Positions 13,325 through 62,583 of a stretch of 64,000 nucleotides of DNA are shown here, piece after piece. This DNA comes from Macrolepiota albuminosa. Its lineage: Eukaryota > Basidiomycota > Agaricomycetes > Agaricales > Agaricaceae. The stretch's first letter is position 1. Each line of letters begins with the position of its first letter. The notes under the pieces were generated by a model. It was not told the origin of the DNA. It searched no databases and saw only the letters and a list, made by a program, of their open reading frames with translations. The position numbers were made by a program, and so were the translations under genes. Where the stretch lies: contig JAMWFC010000106.1 in NCBI GenBank assembly GCA_027475525.1, positions 124,001 through 188,000 of the forward strand, given 5' to 3'.

Positions 13325-13510
13325 ACCCTCAGCTGACTTTACTCATCGTGTAAAGCCTCTGAGGGTGGGCCAATGTCTTGTTACTATTTTCCTCGGCCAA
13401 TACTTACCAATACCTGTAGTCTTATTGTTACCTTTACACTACAGGTTAATATATCTGACTTTACTCATCGTGTAAAGCCTCTGAGGCCTTATTGTTACCT
13501 TTACACTACA
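13325..13510 (+). repeat. LTR relic with the B-intron-A-BA layout
   Basis: B is 13333-13364, the intron-like stretch 13365-13419 (GTGGGC to CCTGTAG), A 13420-13444, the spacer 13445-13454, and B plus A joined 13455-13510. Both B copies are identical over 32 nt. B is flanked by CCCTCAG and CTGAGGG; A by ACCTGTAG and CTACAGGT, so each sits on a hairpin. LTR ends were not found. Confidence 0.6.
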
Positions 13511-14071: not shown

Positions 14072-14333
14072 TGTTGAGGCAGGACCGGTCTCGGGGGATC
14101 TCGGGTGACTGTAGTTAACAAAGGAAACTTCAGTGGTTAGGAACACTGATATGTATTGGATATTCCTACCTGTAGTTAACAAAGGGAACTACAGGTAATG
14201 AGTAACGTATTAAGTGTGATATAAAAGATTGACTTACACCTCAGTGGTTAGGAACACTGAGGTGTGACATGTAATGAACGGAAGAAAACATATGATAACT
14301 GAATGGGGAAGTAGTCGACTGTTGTCCTCAACA
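14072..14333 (-). repeat. Copia-1 3' LTR
   Basis: In minus orientation: B 14256-14240, intron-like stretch 14239-14189, A 14188-14170, spacer 14169-14146, joined B plus A 14145-14109. The B hairpin has 10-bp arms (CACCTCAGTG) and the A hairpin 9-bp arms (CCTGTAGTT). Confidence 0.9.
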
Positions 14334-17300: not shown

Positions 17301-18756
17301 GACTTTTGAAAATGATGGTTGATCCATCAGCATGATATAATCCGCAGATTGTGGGGACATGACCAATGACCTGATGTTGTGGCTTTGGACTTCTGATGAC
17401 ACACACTCTGTCCTCAATAAGGAGAGAGCAACCAGCACTATCAAGACATGATACAGACACCAGTGTGAAAGCCATAGTAGGTGCATAATAAACCCTTTTA
17501 AGAAATTTGCAGATCTCCTCTGCCAAGAGCACTAAAAGTATGTCTATCTGCTGCACGGACCAGTTCAGGGTTGATTTCCTGATAGTTTTTAAATCTTTCA
17601 CAAGACGGTGAAAAATAGCTGCTGGCACCACAGTCAATGATGACACCAATGGATGAAGATGCAACATGGGCTTCATGGCTGTGTCCAGATGTAATTGCAA
17701 GTGCAATGTTTTTGCCTGTAACATCATCATGGGCATCAATGAAGGGAGGTGAGGAAAGCGTAATTTTCTTTCTTCTTCTCAGTTTCAGCAGCATTTGCTG
17801 ATTTGCTTTTATCTGCCTTATCTTTTTCCTTTCCTTTGTGCTTTTTCAGCTACCATTTGGGTGCTTTGCTTGCCATACCGCTGCCTTCCTCAAAACATTT
17901 GTCCTTTGTGTGTCCATCCTTCTTGCAATTTTTGCAGTGTTACTTACTCTTGTCTTTGGATCTAGGTTTCCCCTTTCTCTTTGTATCTTTGGGATCACCA
18001 TGAGCCTTTGCATGTGCAGCAATCATTGCCTCATGCTGGCGATTAATGCTCATTTCAATAGCAGCACTATTCACTTCCTCATCAAGATGCCAGATGAGAT
18101 CCTGGCTTGAGACTAGTTTTCCAGAGGTGCATGCAGATGTTGCGAGCATGGTGAACAAAGGTTTGTATGTGGGGGCAAGAGATAGTGATGTGTGGATGTA
18201 GCTTGTAAATGATGCATCAGACAGCAGACAACCGATTTCAGCAAGACATTCTTTAATTACAACCATACTAGCGAGATGTGTATGCATGTCAATTTTGCTA
18301 TTCTTGACAAAGCAGGTGTTTGCAGTTGAGCAAGGAGATCAGTTTTGTATATGGCCCCTTTACTGCCATGAATTGACATGAACTTTTTTCACACAGCAGC
18401 AACCGGTGGGTTTACCTTTAACTTGGTGAAAGGTAGACTGATTGACTATGCTGTAGATAATCTCACAAACTTGAGCCTCTTTCTGCAACCACTCCTCCAT
18501 GGCATCCTCAATTTCATCAATCTGATTGTCAGACAACAGAGCCAGGGATTTTTCATCACAATAAAAGGATCCCTTGTGCTCAACAAGCATGACCAGTTTA
18601 TGTGTGGTACCTGTAAGGTGTCTCTGGAGCTTCTTTGATGTTATGGCATTAGTGACACATTCCTGGTATGTAGGCCAGTTCGAACCATTAGCTACAAGCA
18701 TTGGGACAGTCAACTTTGTTGACAAGATGTCATAGGTAACTTTGGGGCCCATAACC
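14334..18756 (-). pseudogene. Copia-1 gag-pol, broken
   Basis: Reading from 18756 down, Gag pieces start at MGPKVTYDILSTKL and lead to a zinc knuckle (CKNCKKDGHTKDKC, near 17930) with a stop just before it. A protease follows with IIDCGASS (near 17630). The integrase at 17199-16537 shows GGEFTS, DSPQSNSVAERANRT and LPKFLWAEA. The reverse transcriptase at about 16030-14908 has VVTDDFTI where VxVDD is usual, and DLGPINWLLGV. The Copia RNase H at 14898-14431 has SGYSDADWA, SSTESEYVAL and CDNDGAI. Several stops and frameshifts separate the parts, so no full polyprotein can be made. The order integrase before RT defines Copia/Ty1. Confidence 0.9.
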
Positions 18757-19018
18757 TGTTGAGGCAGGACTGGTCTCAGGGGATCTTGGGTGACTGTAGT
18801 TAACAAAGGGAACTTCAGTGGTTAGAAATACTGATATGTATTGGATATTTCTACCTTTAGTTAACATAGGAAACTACAGATAATGAGTAACGTATTAAGT
18901 GTGATATAAAAGATTGACTTACACCTCAGTGGTTAGGAACACTGAGGTGTGACATGTAACAAATGGAAGAAAACATACAATAACTGAATGGGGAAGTAGT
19001 CGACTGTTGTCCTCAACA
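18757..19018 (-). repeat. Copia-1 5' LTR
   Basis: Same layout as the other LTR, shifted by 4685 bp, with the B-A block at 18794-18941. Here the joined copy reads CTGAAG then TTCCC, one base away from an exact splice of B to A. Confidence 0.9.
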
Positions 19019-21443: not shown

Positions 21444-21725
21444 TGTTATTCCACTCTCCTTTCATTCATTGTTACAACACGTCCATTGTTACACACACAT
21501 ATATATACAACTATACTAGACACTCTACCCTCAGTCAATTAATATTGAACTGAGAGTGAGTCTGAAATACTTACACTATGACAAGCAGTCTGACATAACT
21601 ACCCATAGATAGATTATTTATCATTTATCAGGTAATTATACATCAGTCAATTAATATTGAACTGAGGATAAATTACTTATCATCTATCAGGTCATTGAAA
21701 AGTATCGGAGTGTTGAGTTCTAACA
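21444..21725 (+). repeat. Copia-2 left LTR
   Basis: B 21535-21555, intron-like stretch 21556-21608 (GTGAGT to CCATAG), A 21609-21631, spacer 21632-21646, joined B plus A 21647-21690. The start at 21444 is inferred from the TGTTA/TAACA end pair; the match to the right LTR begins only at about 21456. Confidence 0.75.
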
Positions 21726-21879
21726 GGTTGTGAGCTATTGCTGACAATGAAATACTCTCATATATTTGTGACCACTACACCTATCACTCCAATCAAGCTA
21801 CTCTGTCCTTTTCAGATATCACCTTTTGGCATACTCAGATCCTGCAGGCACTGATCATGCCTATCACCACCTTGTACTT

Positions 21880-24800
21880 TCATGCTTGAGCCCAATTCTC
21901 TTTGTCTACTCTTGCAACTAGCACTAGAGGATCAGTTTTCTCTCCTTTTCCTATGTCTATCAATAGCACCTACCCATGCATTTGTCCAGCCAAACTGGAC
22001 ACACACTGGCCTTTGTCAGAATCTCTCTTTGATTGCACCACTAGTGAATTTACAAAATAGTTAATGAGACTTGAGATCTTTCTCCAGCAGAGCAGCCTGG
22101 ACTGCTATGTCTTTGCTTCTGAAAAGAATCCTGGTTGCCTTATCACTAGTCCTGGCCTTGTTGCAGAACCAGATGTATATGCTAACTGGCTCTCCAACAA
22201 CAACTTGATTATTGGCATTATCCATGCTGCAATATCTGATGCTGAGCAGGAAGGTCTGAAGACCAATAGGACTGCTAAGCAATGCTATGATGCCCTGAAA
22301 GCTAGGGCTCACCATGAGAGTCTGATAAAACAGGTTGCATTCATTTGCAAGGCCTTTTTCACATATGCCCCTTTCACAAAGCCTACTGATATGACAGCCT
22401 GGAAGATCTGCAAGTTGATTGATTGCACCTTTGCCATAGAACCATAGATAAAAATCTTCTGAAATATATTGCTTTGCTCAATACAAGTCATACAAATCAA
22501 TCCAAATACAGGTATCACATAGCCTTGCTAACTCTACAGTCTCCTCACCATACACATCTTTCCAGATCTGCAAACTCTTCCAGACAGTTGACAGCATTGC
22601 TATGCTTTCCAGGCCCACTGACTCTACCTTTGCTGCTTGCAATCTTAAGAATGGTCACAATCATGGACTCAATTTTCCTTGCTGTAGCGTATGTTATGCC
22701 CTGGGCTTGTTGTGCTGTAGCCACACAAAGGAGTGGTGTGTCAGGCCAGGAGAAGGCATGGCTGGCAAGACAATTGAAGAATTCAAAGCTGCACAAGGAG
22801 GAGATCACAAGAGAGAAAAGCCAGCAAACATATTATCTGATAAAACTGTTAAAAACAGCATTGCAGTTAAAGGTCTGGATAGCCAGGCATACATCATTGA
22901 CATGATATACCTTCAAAAGATTCAGTTGGATGCAAAACCCACCAAATTTGCTGGAGTAGCCAACTCCATGGCTAACAACAGCACAGAATACTTTGAGTAT
23001 CAGGGCTTCATGACAATCAACAATAACCCCAGTGACAATTGCAAACTCAGAGCTAGTGTCAACTGAGATATGCACACAATCCCTGCAATTCCTGGTTGTG
23101 AAACCATTCTAGCAACCATGGCAGATTACCTACCAACCTTTTCAGTAACACGTGACTTATTCTCATAGCTGAGAAGCCATTCTATATAGACTCAGGAGCT
23201 ACTGTGCATATCTCCCTCTGCTTCAGACTTCATCACTTTACAACCAATTCTGCCACAAGCTGTCAAAGGGGTGAGCAGCACATTTATACAAGCAGTGGGC
23301 ATAAGACAAATTCATCTACAAGTGCAAAATAATATATCTTGAAGATGCACTTTACATCTCAAACTCCACTGTACAACTCATTTCTATATTGGCATTGGTC
23401 ATAAATATGCACACAATCATCACTTTCAGTTGCACTAGTATCACAATTCTTGACAAAAACAGCAAAACACTTCTTGCAGCAGACCTTATTCTGGGACAAT
23501 GACTATATACTCTAGAGCTGCAATCAGCATTCACTGAGCATGCTATGACTGCTGCACAGACCCTAATCAGCATGAATATCTGGCACTGACACCTTGGACA
23601 TGCAAATTACGAAGTTATTGCAACCATGGCCCACATAGGCCTACTATCAGATATGCCATCCACCTCCCTCCTTGCACAACCTAAATGTGATGTCTGTATT
23701 TTAAGAAATCAGACAAGAGCACCAGTGCACAAGGTATGGGAAGAAGAGTATAGGGTGGTCAAGAGGTTACAAATAGTCTGAATAGATTTAGCTAGGCCTA
23801 TGGCTGTACAGTTGTGTACTGATAACAAATACATCATGGATCTTGTAGATGACTACACAAACATGCCCTAGTCAATACCTCTGAAATCTAAAAGCAATGT
23901 GTTTGAAGCACTCAAAATGTGGCAGAAGGCTTAGAAACTCTAAACAGGTTTCAAAGTCAGGATCTACCATACAGGTCACAACACTGAGTTAAAGAGCCAT
24001 TAGATGGAAGCCTGGACCACATTGACCAAAAATAAAACATTGTTGCAAATTTGCCACGCCATACACCTCTGAACACATGGGACATGTTGAGTGCATGCAT
24101 TGAATGCTTCAGAGCAAAGCTAGAATGATGAGACTAGCTGCTAAGTGTCCCAATACACTATGAGATGAATTCTACTTAACAGCTGCTCACCTTCATGCTA
24201 AAACAGCAACAAAATCACTGAACAGAAAAACCCCCTTCAAGCTATAGTACAGATGCACCCTGAACTATTCTCACATGTATGAAACTGGCTGCTAAGCATT
24301 TGTTCTTATTCAAAACCAGTATAATTCAATGATCAATCTACATGGAATATAGTGTGTTCTTATTGGGTATGCTCAAAACTCAAAGGCCTATAGATGCTAC
24401 TATCTCAGAACACAGAAGGTATATGAGTCGTACCATGTCAGATTTTTTAAACATCATGATGGACATGCACTTTTCATGCTGATCAAGCCTGCATCCACAG
24501 TGCCTATTGCACTTACAATGCTAAGCAAACTGATAATAAACAATAATGTTAGAGATATCTCTGCAGATGCTCTCTTTATCACCAATGATGACAAAGAAAA
24601 TAAACCAGTGCCGCTGCCTGCATTGATGCCCAACAATAAACCTAATGTACTACCCAATATACCAGAACCAACTCTTTAACACTCAAGCAGAGTACCTATT
24701 CCAACTGTCAAGACACAACCAGATGACACACTGCAGACACACCTCAAACTTGCAGTACAAGAGTCTTGAGCAGCAGATGACAGACTGCATGCTGCAAGGG

Positions 24801-27745
24801 CCAACAAACACCAGAACAACAACCCAGCACTCTTAGTTCCAGAGCCAGCAACAATGGTGGAAGATGAAGATCTCACTCCTGATACAGTGAATTTGGCATC
24901 CCTAGAAGACATCAAACACCTGTTAGCCATGGCAGAATCACTGGGTGACCTAGCTGTCATTGATCTGGACAACAAACCTCAGACATGGCATGAGGCAATA
25001 AAGTTGCCTTATGCCAAAGAATGGGAAGCAGAATATTGAGACAAGCTTGAGTCCCTAAAGGAAATGGGCGTGTACAGGTTAATTCTTTATGATCAGGTGC
25101 CTGTAGGCCACAAAATTTGCAAAAGTAGACCAGTCTTCAAGATTAAGTGTGACAAGAATAGTAAGGCTGTACACTTTAAGGTATGATTGGTCTTTAAAGG
25201 ATACAAACAAATCTATGGACAAGACTACATGAGGACAACTTTGCTGACAGCATGCATGGAGTCATGGCAGGTACTCCTACATCTTGCTGCTGCTCAAAGA
25301 TAGAATACATCACAGATAGACATCAGGACAGCATTCCTGTATAGCCCCCTACCTGAGGAGGAGATCCAGTATATGTTACAGCTAAAGGGTTTTGAAGAAC
25401 CTAGAAAGGAGAGCTAGGTCTGATTGTATCTGGAACCACACTCTCAATGACAACATGATGTCATGGGGCTTCATGCATCTATCCTGCAAATTGTGCATAT
25501 ACTACTATAAAACTGACACAGGCACTATAATAGTGGCAGTGCATGTTGACAACTTTCTCTCAATTGCAAGCAGCAGGGATAAAAACAAGTGGTTCAAAGC
25601 CCAGCTACAATCTGTCTGGACTATATCAGATCTTGGATTGCCCAGATTTGTTGTTGGCATTGTGATAGAGTGGGACCATGAGAAACACAGTTAAGCTCTC
25701 ACAAATAGCCTTCATCAACAAGATTATCTCTCAATTTGGACAGTCAAATGCAATGCTGCTATCACTCTCCATGGAACCTGGCCTCAAACTTTGCAGAGTG
25801 GACAGGTCCTCCTTTCTTTCTTGTCAGATGCCTGCTCTACATTGCCATCTCCACCTGCCCCAACATTGCTTATGCTATCCAACAGCTAACACAATATGTT
25901 AATTCTTACATGGGCATATACTGAAGAGCTGCCATATGGCTTGTGCAGTAATAATGCTCAAAAGTAGATCAGTAGCAGATACGGTTTATGCCTACTAACC
26001 TATACAAAATGTGTTGGGCATGCCAAGGGTTAAAAAAGTCCCAGGTAGTTCCCAGAGAACAAGTCAGAAAATGAGTTGAACAGCAAGATTTATTAAAGGT
26101 TAGTAATGAGAGTTGGTAAGGATGTGCAGCAAGGAAAAATATAGGTAAGTGCAGCAGAGGACATGGCAGAGAAACTAGAGGCTTAGCAATGACTAAGCTG
26201 TGTGATGCCTGCCATAGGTGCAAGACACATAGGTTCTATAAGCATAACTGCAGCAAGCAGGCTCAGAGTGTTCAGACAGTTGGCAACTATGAACTTAGTT
26301 GGCTCAAAAGAAATGTGAACTGTGAAGTGAACTGAGGAGTGTAAACTGGGGTACTCTGTTCTCTTAACTAGTAGCAATGGTAAATATTTATAGTAGACTG
26401 AGTTCATCATTGCTAAGCAACTAAGCATTGTGAAGGAGTGGTGAACTGGAAAGAATGTAAGTATTTGCCATGCATTAAACTAAATAATGAGTGGTTAATG
26501 AGAATGCTGTCTGTCCAAGTAAAAAGAAGGCACCAAGGTGAAATGCCAGGCTGTCAGTCACAGAAAAATACCATCATTCCAACTCATAAGTACTGCTGCA
26601 GGCCAGCAGTACCACATGCTACCTGAGTGATGCCATCTGTAAATGCTTGCTGATGGCATGATGCCAGCTGTCACTTGTTATTCTAGCTGCCACTGGCACT
26701 ATCACTGATTGAGTATGTTGCTTGCCATGCATAGCCATTGGAAATAGCTTAAAATGGATAAACCATGTGCACCAAGTTCAGCACAAGGGTAGCAAGGTGT
26801 CCAGAGCCAATGCCAAGTCTGCTGTTGATGCACCTAGCCTGTGTGGAGTCCTATTAGTGGTATTTCAAAGGCACATAGAATCTCAAACTCACTCTTGGAG
26901 GCAAGGGCAACCCTGTGAATTTGACAGGCTTTACCAACTCAGACTGAGATAACTGCCTGGATACCAGGCAAAGCATAGGAGGCTATGCCTGGGGCCTAAG
27001 ATCAGGAGCCATCTCCTGGGCAGCATACAAGCAGAAATTGATTACTGCATCTTCCTGCAAAGCCAAGTATATGGCCACTTTTGAGAGTGCTACATGCTCT
27101 TCTCAAAGGAATTGGATGCTGTAAGGACAACACTGAACGTCTGCAAAACTCCTTCTACAGACTAGCAGGTGCTGGTGACGAGTAAAAATCAAGCAGGTGT
27201 GGAAGCAAGCAAGAGTCAGGCAGAAGACCAGCAAGGCTAATCAAGCAGTCAGACATTGCTAGAGAGCTTACAGTCAATTTGGTATATAGGCTAAGAGAAC
27301 ACTGCTATTGTTCAGCCTGAGGATATTCTATTCCACAGGCTGCCTATATATACTACATTGGTTGCTGTGCTATTACTAATACTGTTTACTAAGCAGGCCC
27401 TAGTATGTAAAGGAGTAAAACTTACAATAATTGATGCTAAGTAAGGTCCATGCATATGACTCATCAAGGCTGACTACTAAGAGACAGATGGAGAAAAAGT
27501 GGGCCAAGCAGCCAGTCAGATCAGCTAGGTATAGGCATATTATTAGAATAAGCTCAGAATAGGTTTGGACACAGTCTGAAAACTGGTTTCCTGACAGATG
27601 CAACATGACAGATAAACACACACTCATTCTGTGCAACAACAATGTGGCCATCAATTTTTCTGAGGACCCCATGCTCCACGCATATATGAAACACATAGAC
27701 ATCAAGTATCATTTCTTATGTGAACATCTTCAGGCTAGTAAGATA
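21880..27745 (+). pseudogene. Copia-2 gag-pol, heavily broken
   Basis: Gag remains are at 22064-22447 and 22600-23066 with a degenerate cysteine cluster. The protease motif YIDSGATVHIS is near 23190. Integrase traces lie around 23600-24500, the reverse transcriptase around 25080-25900 (VHVDNFLSIA, DLGLPRFVVGI) and RNase H around 26910-27130 (TNSD, TRQSIGGYAWG, AISWAA). The end HIDIKYHFLCEHLQ is followed almost at once by the right LTR. Stops and frameshifts are frequent. RNase H is split from the RT by an insertion at about 25950-26860. Confidence 0.85.
25950..26862. mobile_element. unclassified insertion inside Copia-2 pol
   Basis: Copia-2 reads AAIWLVQ up to about 25950 and resumes as YFKGT near 26863. 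The 0.9 kb between has no Copia coding signal and no clear ORF. It begins near GTAATAATGCTC. Ends and class could not be defined. Confidence 0.5.
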
Positions 27746-27770
27746 TGCATACAATAGTCCTTTCATACAT

Positions 27771-27973
27771 TGTTACAACACTTCTATTGTTACAGACACA
27801 CATATATATGACCATACTGGACACTCTACTCTCAGTCAATTAATATTAATATTGAACTGAGGGTGAGTTCAAAATACTTACACTATGACAAGCAGTCTGA
27901 GATAACTATCTATAGATAAATTACTTATCATCTATCAGGTCATTGAAAAGTATTGGAGTGTCAAGTTTTAACA
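27771..27973 (+). repeat. Copia-2 right LTR, one B-A copy only
   Basis: B 27836-27862, intron-like stretch 27863-27915 (GTGAGT to CTATAG), A 27916-27938. The spacer and joined copy found in the left LTR are absent. Its A matches the left LTR's joined A exactly, as expected from recombination between the two A copies. Confidence 0.8.
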
Positions 27974-43300: not shown

Positions 43301-44782
43301 CGTGTTTGAGTTGGTGGATGAGAGGTCAGTTCCAAGGAGGAAAATGTAGTGGGGTTTAGATGGGTGTACACTAATAAATTCACAGCTGAGGGCAAAGTGG
43401 TGAGAAGGAAGGCACAAGTTGTGGCAAAGGGTTTCTCCCATGTTGCAGGCAAGAACTTCAATGAAACTTACATAGTGGTTGTCCAACTTGAGTTTTTGTG
43501 CATGTCCACAGCCATTGTGGCCCAGGAAGGTCTAGAGATTTGGCAGGTGGATTTTGTCTCTGCCTATCTGAACAGCATACTGGAGCATGAGGTATGCATG
43601 CACCTGCCACCTGGTTTTCTGGGGGGAGAGGGGAAGCTAGCATGACTCTGTAAAACCATTTATGGCCTTATGCAAGGTGGTTTCAACTGGTACTGGACTT
43701 TGGATGGGGAATACACAGAACTGGGCTATAAGAAATTGAGGGCTGGCCCATGCATGCACTTGAGGAAGATAGGATCTGAAGTAATGATCACAAATATGTT
43801 TAACCATGATACATTTGGACTATCTTTGACTACACAGGGTGCAGATCTGGTGAAAAAGCAACTTACATGTATTTAAGAAGTTAAAAACCTAGGAAAGCCA
43901 ATGTTTATCCTAGGAATAGCTATTGAGCAAGATTGAAACACCAGCTCAATTTCTCTATCCCAGAAGGCATACCTCACATGCATTGTTGAACAGTTCAACA
44001 TGACAGAATGCAATCCCTGATACATGCCACTGTCATTAGGAATCATCCTCACAGCCAACATGGCCCCAAAAAGCAATGTGGAGCAACTATTTATGCAAGA
44101 CAAGCCATATAGACAACTCTTAGGTGTGCTGATGTGGGCCCAGGCAGCCACTCAGCCAGACTTATCTTTTGCAATCACTCTACTCACACATTTCCAGTTG
44201 AACCCAGGCCCTGCCCATTGGAAGGCACTTCTCCACATCCTAGCTTACATCAAAGGCACACTCAACTACAAAATCCTATATTCCAAGGAGCTGGGAGGGT
44301 CTACCAAACCATTGGGATAGATCAATGTGGACTATGGAGGAAACATTGACACTAGGCAGTCAACATCTGGATATGTGTTCCTCATGGCAGGCAGACCAGT
44401 CTCCTGGAGCTCCAAGCACCAGCAAACGGTGGCATTGTCAACAACTGAAGCTGAGTACATGGCAATGATGTGGGGCTCACAACAGGCTTTGTGGATGCAC
44501 AACTTCCTTCTGGAAATAAACATGGCACAGCCACTACTGGCAACCATCATGGTCGACAATAACTCTTCTATTGCACTCCCCAGTCTACAAAAGGTCAGTC
44601 TCATGCCAAGCACATCAATATCAGGCACCATTACAATTTGGGAGTGCATCCAGGAGGGGGACATTGAGGTTATCCATGTACCCTCCTCTGAGAACATCGC
44701 TGACATCTGTACCAAACCTTTGCCTCACGCGACTCACAATTACCTCACTTCTCTTATGGGCATCAAACATATTGACGGTTGA
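40398..44782 (+). pseudogene. Copia-3 gag-pol, broken
   Basis: Gag continues from 40403 (FLKHVEDMWEKW) to a zinc knuckle CVNPNCKKMGHAIENC (near 40680) that ends in a stop. Protease traces lie near 40985 (NLGATNHFF). The integrase at 41478-41940 (HIDLWGP, VAKRANCTILNR) is interrupted by the 0.45-kb repeat and resumes at 42449 (MLIESELPKNLWAEA). The RT at 43230-43900 has GFRWVYTNKF, VVAKGFSHVAGKNF, WQVDFVSAYLNS and KTIYGLMQGG. RNase H at 44327-44782 has DTRQSTSGYVFLM, ALSTTEAEYMAM and DNNSSIAL, and ends SSENIADICTKPLP. Several stops and frameshifts are present. The 5' LTR was not found. Confidence 0.88.
41941..42448 (+). repeat. 0.5-kb dispersed repeat, copy with intron-like insert
   Basis: It begins TGTCAGGGGACTCC and interrupts the Copia-3 integrase. 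Flanks GATAC (41936-41940) and GGTAC (42449-42453) may be a target duplication with one mismatch. At 42357-42419 it has 63 nt (GTGAGT to CTGCCAG) absent from the copy at 20892-21336. The 20 nt before this insert are repeated at its end. Confidence 0.8.
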
Positions 44783-44797: not shown

Positions 44798-45190
44798 TGT
44801 TGAGCAAGCGACTCATTCAACCAACAGCTCAACATCCAAGACTGTAATTATCATTTGTTTATTTTTCTTATTGCACTTACCTCTTTCGGTGGCATAAGCC
44901 ACATTACACAAATGATCAGTATTTACCAGTCTTTGTTTTCTTTTCTCTTTTTTTTTTCGTAGACACAAACAATCAGCCCTCAGTCAACTACATCTTTTGT
45001 GAGTGACTGAGGGTGAGTCACCTTTATCCTACTTACAGAAATATTTACTCATATGACCTGTAGAATAACCGTACTGTTCTACAGGTAAATTAATATATTA
45101 ATCAACTACATATTTTGTGAGTGACTGAGGAATACCTGTACTGTTCTACACAGGTGAGTAACAATGAAATCTTGACTTAATTCATGCAGG
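44798..45190 (+). repeat. Copia-3 3' LTR
   Basis: It follows a polypurine tract (AAGGGGAG) and begins TGTTGAGC. A pyrimidine run (near 44950) leads to CCCTCAG, then B 44984-45012, the intron-like stretch 45013-45063 (GTGAGT to CCTGTAG), A 45064-45084, spacer 45085-45101, and joined B plus A 45102-45153, followed by another GTGAGT. The 3' end of the LTR is not defined. Confidence 0.75.
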
Positions 45191-56480: not shown

Positions 56481-56634
56481 TAAACGAATCAAGCACATCT
56501 GACACGTTGACAGATAGTTCGTTAATCAAAGAGTGTACAGACGTGTATTCACCAAAATAAACGAATCAAGCACATCTGACACGTTGACAGATAGTTCGTT
56601 AATCAAAGAGTGTACAGACGTGTATTCACCAAAC
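56481..56634. repeat. 77-bp tandem duplication (likely assembly artefact)
   Basis: Second copy starts at 56558. The main Helitron ORF stops inside it. Confidence 0.9.
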
Positions 56635-59600
56635 AGGAACTCTCTGTCTCCTCAAGGGCCTTGGGGCGATACTATGGAAATCCTTCACTAGATGTTTGTT
56701 TAGACGCGGGCTCAATGCACTAAGCTTTTGAGACCATTCTAGAGGATCTTCTCGCCATAAATTGTATATAATAGACAATACAGAATCGTATGCGCAACTG
56801 TTCAGCTTCCATGAACAGGCAAAGGGGGGACAAGTACCTTGCAAAATAGACAGACTATCTGCGTGACTCAACCGTCGGCGTTTGCTTGGACCATGCTCAA
56901 TGTCTTCCTGCATCTTCCGTTTTCCTGTGCTGCATGGATCCTTGTATACCTTGGCCCCTCTGGCAGGGATGAAAGTGTTTTTGGGCAATGGCCTTTCTTG
57001 TAGCGGCCTCTCTCTTGATATTATATGCCAATTGATATCTATGTACCCTGAATCATCAAATTGATCGTTTTTACCCCATCTCAGGGACGGATGCAAATGA
57101 GGAGGAAAGTATGTGTCACTTTTGCATTGTCTAAACGATGCTATCAAATCGGACCGTCTTGGAGCGTCATGGAAACCCTTTGGCAGCTTCCCTACATACC
57201 TCAGCCTCGTTATCTCATCCAGCAACTCTAAATCCCGGAACTCCTGACGTAGTGCGCCAGTTGCTTTTCCTTGAATGACGGTTCTGTCAAATCCACGTAT
57301 TATAATAGTGCCGGCTGCAGTAGCGCTTCGGGACAGTGCTGTATAGTAAGCCTGATGGGATTGACATTTGAACAAGTCAACAGGATTAAAAGGCCTAGTC
57401 TTCCCTTGGCTAGCGTAATCGGTTATAGCATAGTTGACGAGTATTTCGATTTGTGATCGCGAAATTGTAATCTTTTGGTCGTTAGGTAGACTGCATTCAG
57501 TCGAAACAGTGCTTCTAGTTATTGGTACTACGTCTTCAGGAAGACCTTCTATTTGTACGTGATGCGGTGGATTCTTCAGTTTTACAAACAGCGTGTCTAT
57601 CATACGTTGACCAACAGAACCCGTACATGACTTCCATCCATATACGTAACCTTCTTGACCATTTGTGATACAGAGCTCGGTGGCAATGTTAGTCTTAATG
57701 ATAATAGGTAAGTCGACGCATAGCGACAGTTTGCCTGCAACTTGACCAGATGTGGATGACGGAGGCTGCTCCCATAGAATATTCTGAATAGAGGAGTGTA
57801 GAGGAACTCTGTTTCTACCTGATGCTCCTCGACCTTTACCTTGGCATGTGCTCTCGTCACCCTTGTCAAGTACAGTATCTTCGCTAAAGAAATCTGTCAG
57901 CTCGAGTCCACTCTCCAGGGCAAATCTGCTACTTCCAACCACATTGACAGCATCTTTATCTATGTTGTGTGCTGTTATGATAGACACATTACGGAAGTCA
58001 TCATTGAGAAGCGAGGAGTCTGAAAGATTGGAGACTCGCCGAGACTCCAGGAACTGGATATCGTCTTTGGTGCATGCTCGATACCTCATGTTAGCGAGGG
58101 CCGTTCTAAAGGATTTGTCGTCTGGACTTTGCATTGTCTGTCTCATATTCTGTCTCAATATGACTACTGTAGTAACCTGGTGCCAAACTGCTTTACCCAA
58201 TGCAGCCTTTTGTTCGTTCAGATCTATAGATCGCATACCCACACTGCGACTGTACAGCGCTGCATTCTCACGGCCAGTTACTGGCGGCAGCTGAGCAAAA
58301 TCACCAGCAAACACCATGTTCATACCACCAAAAGGGAGGTGCGACAGACCTGTAATCTGAGCAAGGCACGCTGATATCTTGTACATATCCCTGCAAGACA
58401 ACATGGACACTTCGTCAAAAAATACATATTGCACCCCGATAAGGCGTGACTTTACTTGAGCCAGTTGTGCCGGAGAGTCGCGTACCATATCATTAATTCC
58501 AAACAGATAATGGTAAGTCGATCCACCTAACAATGATGCTGCGGTGCCGGTAGGAGCAACCACTGCAAACCTATGAGATTCTCCACGGGCTGCAAAGTAT
58601 TGGGACAGCGCCTTAAGCACCTGCGTTTTCCCGGTGCCCCCCATACCCCCCATATACATTCTCAACTGTTCGGGGTTAGAAGTGGCAGCGTGGTTAGCCA
58701 CTATTCTAAATGCTCTGGTTTGTTCCTCATTGAGATTGAAACTGGTAGTAATTTCGGATATGGTGGGTTCCCATTTGATATTTAAATGTTTTTTCTCTAG
58801 GAAACTACGATCACATACTTCCACAATGCCCGGCTTGTTTTGTTCGTCCGATCTTCCAACGCGCTGTTCACGAACAGACGACATGTCTTTTTGCCTATCT
58901 TTTAGTATGGACGCACGAGTTTCACTGACCTTATGTCTCCAGTAAGTACTGGGCATGTCTGACACAGAAGGTGAATGCTTCGTTGTAACAGGGGAGGTTT
59001 GGCCCATTACAGGCTTATCCCAATTCAGGCTCGTCATGGTGGAAGTCATAATAGCCATATCTCTCCGACGTTTTAGTTCGGTTTTGCCAAGCTCATTACT
59101 ACAGTCAAGGTCTATCCCGTAGTCCTCAGGTTGTCCGTTATCTTCGTCGTCCATATGATCCTTTTGTTCGATATCTCTGACATTGGAAACTGAATTGTCC
59201 ATTCCCGGGAATGCCACACCGCCTCGCTTCAACTGTGCATAGAAATCGTCACGGGCATCCAAACACTCATACTTAATATTCATATTAGCCATAAGACACA
59301 GTTGCCTTTCGGTAAAATGATGGTTGTCGAATGCCGTGCTCCATAAATCATACTTGTTTTTTAAATCAGCACCTGAACACCAAGGCTTGAATAAGGTAAG
59401 CATTGTGACGCAGTATTCGTCTCTATCCCCTTTATCACGCCTTGGAAGAGTAGGACCAATGAAATTGGGCACGCGCTTCTGCCCTGGCGGATATACAAGG
59501 GTAGCATGGGAGTCCGACAAGGGATGATCGTCTGTAAAGTTGACGGTCAGCGTGTTGGCCGATTTAGACTTGCAACTTTTGTTCCCTCTACGAGTTGATT

Positions 59601-62583
59601 TTACTCGTTCGCATCTAGAAGCCCATTCGTACAATGTCATGTTGCGCAATTCTATGCCACGGTATATGTAGTCAAACACAGGAGATAGTCCCACCACTCG
59701 GCCTTTCTTTCTGATGATCGCTATTTTGTCAGATCCGTATGAACTGTCAGTTGGCTGATCGTCGGGCCAAGCACGTTTGACCTCGCGGACGAAGCTGGGC
59801 CAATGAAGATTGGTGAATTTATGGTCGGTGTAATGATCGGGGTTACCAAGAAGGTACATACATATCATCGGGGAACCCATTTCTGACTTTGCACTCATTA
59901 CATTAGCCATTTTTGTCATGAGAGACCTTGCTTTTTCTTGCTGTGGGAGAGGTCCGTTAACAATATCTTGGTATTTTGTGAGCACTGTGCCAACAGCCTC
60001 AAATGCTGTGTACGTTTTAAGCGATGATTTAGTTATATATTTAGTGACATATAAAAGGACACCCCTGACCGCCGTTCCTGAACGAAGACTAGTTACATCA
60101 GTGTTGCATCTAAACAAATAACTCAAAGATGCGGTGAATGTGTTCAGCCATGGTTCCGCTTTACGCATATTGAGCGCACCTGTTAGAGGGTCGACTTCAG
60201 TCTGTTGAAAGAGTTCTTTGGGAAACCGAGCCTTACATCTGCCCCATTTGTTGTCTAGACACCCTTTATTCTCTTTGCCTAATTTTTTACTTCCGTCCTT
60301 CTTATATGATGTATGGCAGGTATGCACATTTGACCTAAATACAATGTCATCTACAGTGTTACGGAATTGAGTCCACCAATTAGATGTCTCCTCACATCCG
60401 ACACACTCCTGGGGCAGTGCCTGAGGGTCAGATTGACCAGCATCGGGTATATTGTCCGTAGAAGCATCACGGGCTGTTGGTACTGAGAGTTTGTTGATTG
60501 AAGTTTCTTGTTTACTCCGACACAAATGATCGGGAGGAGGGGGCTGGGGCATCGTCCGCGTGGGATCAATATATTCTGGCATCTTCTTGGATTTTTCAAT
60601 GTTATCTATTACTTCGTCCATTGTCCCAGTAAGGAAGTCACCGGTGAAGGCAGATTCCAGATATTCCACTAGGGCCCTCTGAAAATCAGATGAGGGGTCC
60701 ATGATTTTCCGACGAGCTTCCTCAGGTGATAGACTTCCACGAAGCCAAAGGAGCATATGCAGATGCAAGGTAAGTCTACCTTGCTGCTCGACTGTCCCGT
60801 AGTATGCAGACGTGTGACCGTACAAGCCTTCGTGTTCAGTATCAACACCCAATACGTGCTTTATGAAAGCAGACACCATAAAATGAAAGAATCTGGCCCC
60901 TGCAACAGGATTACGTGCAATAAGTCGATATGCAGTGTCAGAAGGTAATAATATATCAGGTTCAAACTTTATATTATCACCGGCATAGTACAGACATATA
61001 GGGTGTCTGATATCCACAGGCGACAACGTTATAAACCAAGAAGGCGCGCCTTTGTCAATCACTAATGACCATATCTCGTTTCTCATATGTTTTTTTGTTA
61101 TTGGAGACCTGTCGATCCGGCCCGACACAGCATCAACGTCTTCAATAACTTTGAAACATTTCTGTTCCTCCTGGTTTGTGGGCTTGATAATCTCGCCTTT
61201 GGCCATACGATCAGCCATACTTCTGAGTAATTCCACGTCGAGACTTGCTATGCATTCAGCAATATGAGCAAAGTCGTTTCTTTCAATCGCCAGAAACCCC
61301 CCTGTAGTTGCGGCTCTGATCTGCTTGTGACTGAATGCCGCAAAGGGAAAGCCAGTATCTCTCTGGAACCGCTTATCATGATACATGAGGAGATTGCCTT
61401 TGTGAACCTTAACAGAGATACAGCCTTTTACACAGCCTGGACCCCCAAAGCCATATGGAAACAACCAGGGAAACATTTGAGGATAAACAGTTGCGTCCTT
61501 CATCCAATTAACCGGACGGGATGAATGTCCAACTAGCAGTGCTTTGCCATTGGAGTGCCAGTGCTTTAAAGCAATACCTTTAAGCTCATCTTTTGTTTTT
61601 GCTGATAGGCTCTCACCCGTCAGTCCATGCACGACAAAAGGACAATCCCCGGCTGATACCCCATTATCTCCATCAACTTTGTAAACGGCAGGGTCAACTG
61701 TTCTGTTTTCCTCCAGAGACTCTTTGTAAACGATCTTTACTGGTGGTGTATCTTCTGGATAGTCGTCAAGATTGCTATCGCATATTTCAATGTCCGTATA
61801 AGCAGAATGATTAAGCTTGAGCCATTCCAATGCCTGCTTCACAGCGTTTCGGCGGACAAGCAAAGGCAATCGTTTGAGATCTTCCCCAGTAGGCTGACAA
61901 GGCCCTGTAAATAGAATAGCTAAAACATCATCCATGTCAGCCCTCGGAGGAGGCAGTACATGGTAAACCTTTTCAACGGGAGATTCAAAAGCAATCAAAT
62001 GTGCGTTCATTTTGCTGAGACCTGAGGACGACACGTGTGTGAAACAGAGAGACCTACGTACTTTGGCGACAAGGAGCTGTTCAACCCAATTTAAACGGGA
62101 TAAAACAACTGGAACAGCACCAATCCAAAAACCGTTTGCAAGTGCATACTTAGGAACTTTGCCCTTCAACAATGGGATCCTGCACTCTGAACAGACAGAA
62201 TTGCATCTATGATCCAACACCGGGCCTTTTATTTCTCTCACAGATTCCGTTCCTGAACGCCTCTCCACTCTGGTAACTCCTTTGGCAGATAACACACCGA
62301 GAAACCCTTTCATACTTTTTAGAGTATGCATATCCTTAACTGGGCGCAGCAAACCACAAACAGCGCAACCACTTTCTTCTAATTGTGCTGGACCTGTTTT
62401 GTTGCAAAAGTCGCGTATGATTTGAGTAGTTAGGCTTGGTGTAAGAGGCTTTCTTCTAATTGTGCTGGACCTGTTTTGTTGCAAAAGTCGCGTATGATTT
62501 GAGTAGTTAGGCTTGGTGTAAGAGGCGCAGGAGAAATTCGGGCTTGTCAGGGCCCCGAACATCTGCCTCAAGAACAACTTCAT
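56626..62583 (-). CDS. Helitron Rep-helicase
   Basis: 1985 codons are open. Cysteine pairs (CAVC, CSEC) mark the N-terminal zinc-binding region. The HUH nickase motif HLH is in GRLTLHLHMLLW near residue 603, and the two-tyrosine motif YVTKYITK near residue 843. A PIF1-type helicase follows with Walker A GGMGGTGKT (near 1310), Walker B FFDEVSML (near 1387) and the C-terminal motif YASQGKTRPF. The protein nicks, unwinds and transfers one strand in rolling-circle-like transposition (family knowledge). At the end a SCAYDSVLSIIYNLW block begins a possible cysteine protease. The first about 45 residues and the last about 20 are altered by 77-bp duplications (62372 and 56481). Confidence 0.94.
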   Translation of the reverse strand: MKLFLRQMFGALTSPNFSCASYTKPNYSNHTRLLQQNRSSTIRRKPLTPSLTTQIIRDFCNKTGPAQLEESGCAVCGLLRPVKDMHTLKSMKGFLGVLSAKGVTRVERRSGTESVREIKGPVLDHRCNSVCSECRIPLLKGKVPKYALANGFWIGAVPVVLSRLNWVEQLLVAKVRRSLCFTHVSSSGLSKMNAHLIAFESPVEKVYHVLPPPRADMDDVLAILFTGPCQPTGEDLKRLPLLVRRNAVKQALEWLKLNHSAYTDIEICDSNLDDYPEDTPPVKIVYKESLEENRTVDPAVYKVDGDNGVSAGDCPFVVHGLTGESLSAKTKDELKGIALKHWHSNGKALLVGHSSRPVNWMKDATVYPQMFPWLFPYGFGGPGCVKGCISVKVHKGNLLMYHDKRFQRDTGFPFAAFSHKQIRAATTGGFLAIERNDFAHIAECIASLDVELLRSMADRMAKGEIIKPTNQEEQKCFKVIEDVDAVSGRIDRSPITKKHMRNEIWSLVIDKGAPSWFITLSPVDIRHPICLYYAGDNIKFEPDILLPSDTAYRLIARNPVAGARFFHFMVSAFIKHVLGVDTEHEGLYGHTSAYYGTVEQQGRLTLHLHMLLWLRGSLSPEEARRKIMDPSSDFQRALVEYLESAFTGDFLTGTMDEVIDNIEKSKKMPEYIDPTRTMPQPPPPDHLCRSKQETSINKLSVPTARDASTDNIPDAGQSDPQALPQECVGCEETSNWWTQFRNTVDDIVFRSNVHTCHTSYKKDGSKKLGKENKGCLDNKWGRCKARFPKELFQQTEVDPLTGALNMRKAEPWLNTFTASLSYLFRCNTDVTSLRSGTAVRGVLLYVTKYITKSSLKTYTAFEAVGTVLTKYQDIVNGPLPQQEKARSLMTKMANVMSAKSEMGSPMICMYLLGNPDHYTDHKFTNLHWPSFVREVKRAWPDDQPTDSSYGSDKIAIIRKKGRVVGLSPVFDYIYRGIELRNMTLYEWASRCERVKSTRRGNKSCKSKSANTLTVNFTDDHPLSDSHATLVYPPGQKRVPNFIGPTLPRRDKGDRDEYCVTMLTLFKPWCSGADLKNKYDLWSTAFDNHHFTERQLCLMANMNIKYECLDARDDFYAQLKRGGVAFPGMDNSVSNVRDIEQKDHMDDEDNGQPEDYGIDLDCSNELGKTELKRRRDMAIMTSTMTSLNWDKPVMGQTSPVTTKHSPSVSDMPSTYWRHKVSETRASILKDRQKDMSSVREQRVGRSDEQNKPGIVEVCDRSFLEKKHLNIKWEPTISEITTSFNLNEEQTRAFRIVANHAATSNPEQLRMYMGGMGGTGKTQVLKALSQYFAARGESHRFAVVAPTGTAASLLGGSTYHYLFGINDMVRDSPAQLAQVKSRLIGVQYVFFDEVSMLSCRDMYKISACLAQITGLSHLPFGGMNMVFAGDFAQLPPVTGRENAALYSRSVGMRSIDLNEQKAALGKAVWHQVTTVVILRQNMRQTMQSPDDKSFRTALANMRYRACTKDDIQFLESRRVSNLSDSSLLNDDFRNVSIITAHNIDKDAVNVVGSSRFALESGLELTDFFSEDTVLDKGDESTCQGKGRGASGRNRVPLHSSIQNILWEQPPSSTSGQVAGKLSLCVDLPIIIKTNIATELCITNGQEGYVYGWKSCTGSVGQRMIDTLFVKLKNPPHHVQIEGLPEDVVPITRSTVSTECSLPNDQKITISRSQIEILVNYAITDYASQGKTRPFNPVDLFKCQSHQAYYTALSRSATAAGTIIIRGFDRTVIQGKATGALRQEFRDLELLDEITRLRYVGKLPKGFHDAPRRSDLIASFRQCKSDTYFPPHLHPSLRWGKNDQFDDSGYIDINWHIISRERPLQERPLPKNTFIPARGAKVYKDPCSTGKRKMQEDIEHGPSKRRRLSHADSLSILQGTCPPFACSWKLNSCAYDSVLSIIYNLWREDPLEWSQKLSALSPRLNKHLVKDFHSIAPRPLRRQRVPVW
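62372..62525. repeat. exact 77-bp tandem duplication (likely assembly artefact)
   Basis: Second copy starts at 62449. It splits the Helitron N-terminus from the main ORF. Confidence 0.9.

Follow-up and report, generated by a model that had tools for sequence, protein, structure and literature searches.

The LTRs of many retrotransposon families in this genome carry a block in which two short predicted exons (B and A) are separated by a predicted intron and then, after a spacer, repeated in joined form (B'A'). The block is real and genome-wide. The sequence shows two predicted introns in the LTR, the second of which ends in an already joined BA copy. This copy is probably re-made from spliced element RNA at every reverse transcription, and in the 3' LTR it would be the site (R) on which that RNA lands. 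On balance, we also favour a splice-compensated R, in which spliced RNA would be the regular genome. At every first-strand transfer it would dock on a DNA copy of the element's own spliced exons, and the 3' LTR would serve as template for restoring the introns. Each LTR would in that case hold two versions of the leader, an intron-containing one to be transcribed and a pre-spliced one used in replication.

Within the window, which is the whole 64-kb stretch of DNA that was analysed, one such block occupies the end of an LTR with the following layout.

44798..45150, plus strand: 3' LTR of a decayed copia element, TGTTGAGC...TGTTCTACA (BLAST and alignment with 35 relatives)
44977..44981, plus strand: CCCTC, left arm of the donor hairpin, 5' of the predicted start (arm-donor covariation over families and direct reading)
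44982..45012, plus strand: B, predicted exon 1, from the predicted +1 to the donor (identity step at +1 in 46 representatives)
45013..45063, plus strand: predicted intron 1, 51 nt, GTGAGT...TTACTCAT...CCTGTAG (split-repeat placement)
45064..45084, plus strand: A, predicted exon 2, AATAACC...CTACAG, followed by GTAAAT (split-repeat placement and AG/GT analysis)
45085..45099, plus strand: spacer s, with the predicted intron 2 donor and an AATA-rich stretch (AATA excess in spacers and AG/GTA at the A end)
45100..45130, plus strand: B', copy of B (direct reading and split-repeat search)
45131..45150, plus strand: A', copy of A, reaching the LTR end (alignment with relatives)

The succession of B, intron, A and joined BA, first proposed in a sequence-only reading of this DNA, was borne out on direct reading with boundaries shifted by at most 3 bases. 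B had been placed at 44984-45012; its end stands, whereas the match begins at 44982, the A of CCCTC-AGTC. The joined copy, given as 45102-45153, is present and runs from 45100 to 45150. Alignment with relatives puts the LTR end at 45150, and the last 3 nt of the block as first drawn are therefore flank. The CCCTCAG before B, initially read as splice acceptor-like, is better read as an initiator plus hairpin arm, and the acceptor was dropped. In this family, B ends in CTGAGG and the intron in CTGTAG, a loose microhomology that is absent in families such as L107 and L111. The element is copia-type with broken reading frames: an RVT_2 piece (43349-43642; 72.9 bits, cut-off 31.6) lies upstream of the LTR, and BLAST of the block in the host genome revealed the 3' LTR alone and no 5' LTR.

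Further blocks were found elsewhere in the window.

13331..13510, plus strand: block in another LTR (B 13331-13364, intron 13365-13419, A from 13420, B' 13453-13486, A' 13487-13510)
21533..21690, plus strand: block in the 5' LTR of another element (B 21533-21555, intron 21556-21608, B' 21645-21667; one exon-end mismatch)
27834..27944, plus strand: partner LTR of the 21533 block, with B, intron and A present and without a joined copy
14072..14333, minus strand: LTR of a minus-strand element with a block whose join is one nucleotide off GT...AG
18756..19018, minus strand: 5' LTR of the same minus-strand element, with the same one-nucleotide deviation, followed by the PBS GGTTATGGGCCCC

Recurrence in four other LTR loci had been reported, and these loci belong to three other elements. 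An exact GT...AG join is present at 13364; there is one mismatch at 21555, and the 14194/18870 LTRs are one nucleotide off. As unconstrained split-repeat scans of the window were swamped by tandem repeats, the scan was limited to GT...AG and compared with nine other dinucleotide pairs as a chance control. GT...AG gave 7 matches and eight of the nine controls gave 0-2; the remaining pair, CT...AC, also gave 7, because it is GT...AG on the opposite strand. The 7 matches are three blocks in element sense (45012, 13364, 21555), three blocks read antisense to the element and a 77-nt tandem duplication (34824).

Exact 77-nt tandem duplications stand at unrelated places in the window (13650, 29185, 32340, 34711, 36631, 38490, 40053, 47327); a similar one was seen by eye in L150 and one inside an actin-type gene. 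They look like assembly artefacts arising from fixed-length overlaps. Given at least eight of them in the window, the block could be suspected of being one more, but it is extremely improbable that it is: the repeat spacing of the window block is 118 rather than 77 and varies by family, one arm of the block lacks the intron, and the block recurs in 47 clusters with different sequences. The window additionally holds a Helitron on the minus strand (56629-62583), with a long intact frame of 1985 aa that contains Helitron_like_N, PIF1 helicase and DUF6570.

BLAST of the block against the window's own 100-Mb genome returned 40 matches, namely the window, 35 relatives and 4 flank-only matches. A previous statement that no relative shows the design is wrong, since the layout is kept in most of the 35 relatives aligned. 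B, A and the intron differ between these copies, and B/B' and A/A' match inside each copy. The expectation that family alignments would show the joined block at GT-AG boundaries holds for most joins; some copies lack the joined block or depart from GT...AG. Relatives possess an LTR pair with TG...CA ends and a PBS adjoining the 5' LTR, whose sequence, GGTTATGGGCCC, resembles a half-tRNA initiator site. Variants of the PBS at 5' LTR ends (GGTTATGGG, GGTTATAGG, GGTTATTGG, GGTTATCGG) may reflect different primers or decay. RVT_2 scored above the cut-off in L108, L122, L113 and L115, and the profile test assigned no family to the piece of L112. Two copies are young and intact, each with an ORF in copia frame: L108, with the two-intron layout (LTRs 377/377 alike, 1550 aa), and L122, with a one-intron layout (LTRs 232/232 alike, 1526 aa).

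Pattern searches extended this census. The hairpin-plus-donor pattern has 502 exact matches in the genome (reversed control 0) and no exact match in the viral collection, and the PBS pattern has 599 genome matches (control 11). The PBS sample, which involved no selection for the block, comprised 20 of the first 21 among the matches listed; by eye, 14 of these 20 hold the full block, 2 the one-intron layout and 2 B-intron-A without a copy, with 1 degenerate and 1 non-LTR. The donor-pattern sample took 60 of 100 among the matches listed, out of 502. A total of 161 LTR sequences, some loci being entered twice, were searched for their best split repeat without splice sites being required. The samples overlap and come from one genome, the clusters and the B start were set by our own rules, and the scanner missed blocks evident by eye in L104 (5') and L068/L120 (5').

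One split repeat was found in 104 of the 161 sequences, 96 times with a gap of 45-75 nt, and none in the other 57. Its best placement is GT...AG in 78 of the 96, representing 47 of 56 clusters. By sample, this is the case for 26/34 of the BLAST relatives plus the window, 33/37 of the donor-pattern sample, 18/21 of the PBS sample and 1/4 of the others. Junctions usually permit two equal placements one base apart, one of which is GT...AG. Among the 18 structures that are not GT...AG, a splice dinucleotide has changed in L038, L049/L106, L118 (3'), L128 and L142, the placements of L077, L083 and L144 are false or triple, and the 14194/18870 element is off by one in both LTRs. A mismatch or indel lies near the join in L015, L019, L020, L028, L099, L111 (3') and window 21555 (L010 was counted as GT...AG).

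The joined copy also follows the position of the donor. Across 46 cluster representatives the donor lies 0, 1, 2 and 3 nt past CTGAG in 2, 41, 2 and 1 cases, with the joined copy in the same register, as in L115 (GAG/GTACAT, copy GAG/CATC), L112 (GAGGG/GTACAT, copy GAGGG/ATAT) and L107 (GAGGCT/GTAAGT, copy GAGGCT/TTTC); 23 of the 46 come from the donor-pattern sample, so their donor was given in advance. Intron 1 measures 50-59 nt in 76 of the 78 cases and 70 nt in 2, and the four introns of a host actin-type gene measure 47-54 nt; judged by eye, genes and introns here are of fungal appearance. CTNAY occurs near its 3' end in 43/45 (shuffled mean 15.6, maximum 24). The GT...AG ends, branch-point motif and host-like length of predicted intron 1 fit a spliceosomal intron.

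At its other boundary, the copy begins where transcription is predicted to start. B and B' agree at position -4 in 4 of the 46 representatives, at -3 in 15, at -2 in 22 and at -1 in 24, and then at the A of CTC-A-GTC (+1) in 45. The TCAGTY around this position resembles an initiator. A TATA box lies 28-36 nt before the +1 of B in 18/46, compared with 0/46 at the same distance before B'; in the window copy, no TATA box was seen and there is a pyrimidine tract. Because of this identity step and the TATA box before B, the joined copy would start at the predicted RNA start, a site that the sequence-only reading had missed. Transcription could alternatively start at B', with B'A' as an ordinary R and the upstream B-intron-A as a decayed older LTR end; B'A' does sit where R and U5 would be, adjoining the PBS. 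This is very unlikely given the TATA counts and the covarying stem and splice signals that B retains. Moreover, B equals B' at insertion (see below) and is thus not decayed.

A second predicted intron, which had likewise been overlooked, would close the cycle without growth. A and A' are alike up to an AG after which A continues GTA in 32/46, and in 29 of these the site is no more than 3 nt from where identity stops; counts for 35 other dinucleotide pairs were 0-2. Predicted intron 2 comprises the spacer, B' and A' (50-74 nt). Candidate branch points in A' are enriched for ACTYAY (16/32; shuffled 1.1, maximum 4) and CTNAY (19/32; shuffled 6.4, maximum 14), and the YTRAY form shows no excess there (9/32 vs 8.3 shuffled). 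AG/GT fails at the A end in 14/46: it is changed in 4, and in the other 10 A has ACAG/GT but A' runs into flank. Where a 5' LTR ends in CTACA, the PBS supplies, with its first G, the final base of the predicted intron 2 acceptor. Since the joined copy ends at the second predicted splice site, the DNA sequence B'A'-tail corresponds to the leader with both predicted introns removed, B-A-tail.

Although the exons are diverse, each remains close to its own copy: mean identity of A is 34% between representatives and 94% with its own copy. In the 1035 pairs of representatives, 11,786 sites show the same difference in both copies, 1,411 a difference in one copy alone, and 959 some other pattern; as these pairs are not independent, the site counts are sizes rather than tests. 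Comparison of the 5' and 3' LTRs of single elements (8 pairs) gave 1 inherited B/B' or A/A' mismatch in 353 sites and 15 later changes, with 0 changes common to both copies, 14 in one and 1 other. The script handled a ninth pair, L111, out of register; including that pair brings the totals to 1 in 371 and 28 later changes. Within clusters, there are 23 mismatches common to two loci vs 29 concerted changes in 1830 sites, a count that neither supports nor refutes re-copying because copies of one insertion are included. As far as these LTR pairs tell, B/B' and A/A' behave like two LTRs, equal on arrival and drifting later. Equality at insertion thus points to re-copying of B'A' in every cycle.

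The first donor lies in a stem whose left arm is 5' of the predicted start, an arm not noticed in the sequence-only reading. Pairing between the upstream and donor sides amounts to 193 pairs, compared with 174.6 +/- 3.5 when permuted (maximum 188 in 2000 permutations), a signal that stems from a few families with other donors (L105, L107, L111, L113, L115). The stem is predicted at -20.5 kcal/mol when 8 bases upstream are included and at -3.8 when the RNA begins at +1, with shuffled upstream bases still giving -12.1; the difference made by the upstream bases is 11-20 kcal/mol in 46/46. In longer RNA, the donor has an unpaired probability of 0.29 from +1, 0.17 with upstream bases (lower in 36/46) and 0.23 with shuffled upstream bases. 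Because the left arm is upstream of the start, the full hairpin would be formed only by 3'-LTR RNA. The first acceptor can also pair, with the sequence that follows A (longest run 6.7 on average; 5.3 when permuted, maximum 5.7), and this pairing is lost on joining (4.1 on average). Predicted accessibility is 0.52 for A' and 0.42 for A, with little difference between B' (0.36) and B (0.33). The spacers contain 37 AATA, vs 9.9 expected, and could place a poly(A) site within or after B'A'.

These features could also serve leader control. The spliced 5' end would be used for translation, the donor would block the poly(A) site of the 5' LTR and be hidden in the 3' LTR as in foamy viruses, and B'A' would be a by-product of occasional reverse transcription of spliced RNA. 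The dependence of the stem on bases upstream of the start, the AATA-rich spacers and the foamy virus parallel, as excerpted from its published account (PMC3694450), are all consistent with this explanation. However, an occasional by-product should hold inherited mismatches, of which we found 1 in 353 sites, and upkeep of B'A' across diverse families is left unexplained. We therefore consider leader control with an incidental copy to be rather improbable.

In canonical first-strand transfer, R begins at the transcription start, and the minus strong-stop cDNA copied from the 5' end of the RNA anneals to the repeat at the 3' end. The cycle that we infer here builds on boundaries, joins, concerted change, equality at insertion and a covarying stem that are read in the DNA; its start site, splicing, RNA ends, poly(A) site, packaging of spliced RNA and strand transfer are predictions. 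Transcription would start at B, and removal of both introns at the RNA 5' end would give B-A-tail-PBS. In the RNA of the 3' LTR, the hairpin with its arm upstream of the start would hide the first donor, such that U3-B-intron-A-s-B'A' is kept. Minus strong-stop cDNA made on the spliced 5' end would carry the complement of B-A at its terminus and pair with B'A'; its extension would copy s, A, intron 1, B and U3 in turn. This would yield U3-B-intron-A-s-BA-tail, the same LTR with its introns restored and B'A' newly copied. A cycle with intron 1 alone was rejected as a full answer: it would add a BA unit per round, and 6 true joined-unit repeats were picked out by eye. An origin by template switching involving spliced RNA, with a landing site in the 3' LTR, had been suggested for the block; it is partly supported, in that it fits the predicted cap-site start, the splice-site end, the donor register and equality at insertion.

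A second layout occurs in L109 and L122, which have other sequences. It consists of a 23-nt B, one intron of 55-57 nt and then A, with the B start set by eye at the A of (TTC or CTT)-A-TTCTG. A long left arm lies wholly upstream of B, and the last 23 nt of the intron are B', with 0 mismatches in L122 and 2 in L109. The B-A join again equals B'A, and the B part is copied only from the start predicted by eye.

Aberrant forms are likewise seen. The proposed cycle would generate BA alone by landing at B, B-intron-A alone by landing at A, triples by retention of intron 2, and BA-s-BA, the form of L145, by removal of intron 1 alone. An intron-less pattern gave 137 matches (control 3), many of the 100 listed being palindromic hairpins on the other strand. 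Twenty candidates were picked by eye among the matches listed: 12 are BA alone, and 8 have other sequence after GGA, mostly with the donor changed from GGGT to GGAT. A neighbour 5.1 kb from L139 matches the same pattern. The true joined-unit repeats were identified by eye among 78 pattern matches (control 44) and comprise five triples (L144, L146-L149) and one intron-less double (L145). In two triples from two families, L148 and L149, the 3'-terminal 9-14 nt of intron 1 are present inside the middle unit, where they separate B from A; no AG precedes this piece, and a cryptic acceptor hence does not explain it. The 3' LTR of L123 has a long insertion with its own repeats in intron 1. The 5' and 3' LTRs disagree on the joined copy, in both directions, in L106, L121 and window 21533-27944, which ordinary reverse transcription should not give. 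A generalization from the first sample, that all 5' LTRs carry the joined copy, is ruled out by L121 and L119.

Forms of this type raise the alternative that B'A' arose once from spliced RNA, or by duplication and deletion, and has since stayed the same as B and A only because slippage or conversion acts on the direct repeats while they are reverse transcribed; there would then be no landing site, and genomic RNA would be unspliced. Reverse transcriptases do delete between repeats, according to the excerpted text of one study (PMC3678115), the expected forms occur (B-intron-A alone, BA alone, triples), and LTR pairs sometimes disagree (L106, L121). As repeat slippage and the splicing cycle yield the same aberrant forms, these do not decide between them. 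Against slippage, it removes the joined copy, making 14 full blocks at 20 PBS sites unexpected unless the copy is rebuilt. The copy also starts at the predicted +1 and shifts with the donor across four register classes. We view upkeep by slippage as unlikely, and continue to prefer re-copying from spliced RNA.

Foamy virus splice acceptors lie outside the LTR. Their splice donor lies just past the start of R, and the excerpted account describes a different fold there for RNA beginning at +1 than for RNA extended by 13 nt in the upstream direction (Schrom et al. 2013, PMC3694450); the 3' fold is presented in the same excerpts as blocking U1 snRNP (PMC3694450). The elements described here are similar in having a predicted donor near the predicted RNA start and, by covariation and stem energies, a predicted fold change with upstream bases that is weaker in longer folds. 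They differ in that both predicted introns are inside the LTR and accompanied by a spliced copy, the latter not being described for foamy virus in the excerpted text (PMC3694450). With a copia-type RVT_2 polymerase they are no members of the foamy virus lineage, though they may work like the foamy switch.

Among LTR retrotransposons, BARE1, EVADE and Ogre resemble these elements in having both spliced and unspliced RNA, which is predicted here. For BARE1, the excerpted source places the introns within or close to coding sequence, links them to the production of Gag or Pol, and argues that only unspliced RNA is replicated (PMC3735527). The excerpted text on EVADE and Ogre likewise puts their introns within or close to coding sequence, with a role in making Gag or Pol (PMC12786077). 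Spliced RNAs of HIV-1 are reverse transcribed and, as far as the excerpted report goes, accompany an unspliced genome (PMC1868081), whereas spliced RNA here would be the regular strong-stop template. In contrast to a canonical R, the R proposed here would occur twice per LTR, with introns for transcription and pre-spliced for transfer. Among the titles and opening parts of abstracts listed from the open-licence literature, there was no account of a spliced copy inside an LTR.

Intron loss is expected when the spliced RNA of a retroelement is copied, and has provided the classic proof of an RNA intermediate. Many families in this genome appear to solve this problem inside the LTR, using two different layouts. 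If the proposed cycle is true, they would provide a first-strand transfer that spans a splice event, a DNA record of the RNA start site and a hairpin that distinguishes the two ends of one RNA. A simple test is available for other genomes, in which B/B' and A/A' would be equal at insertion, like LTRs.
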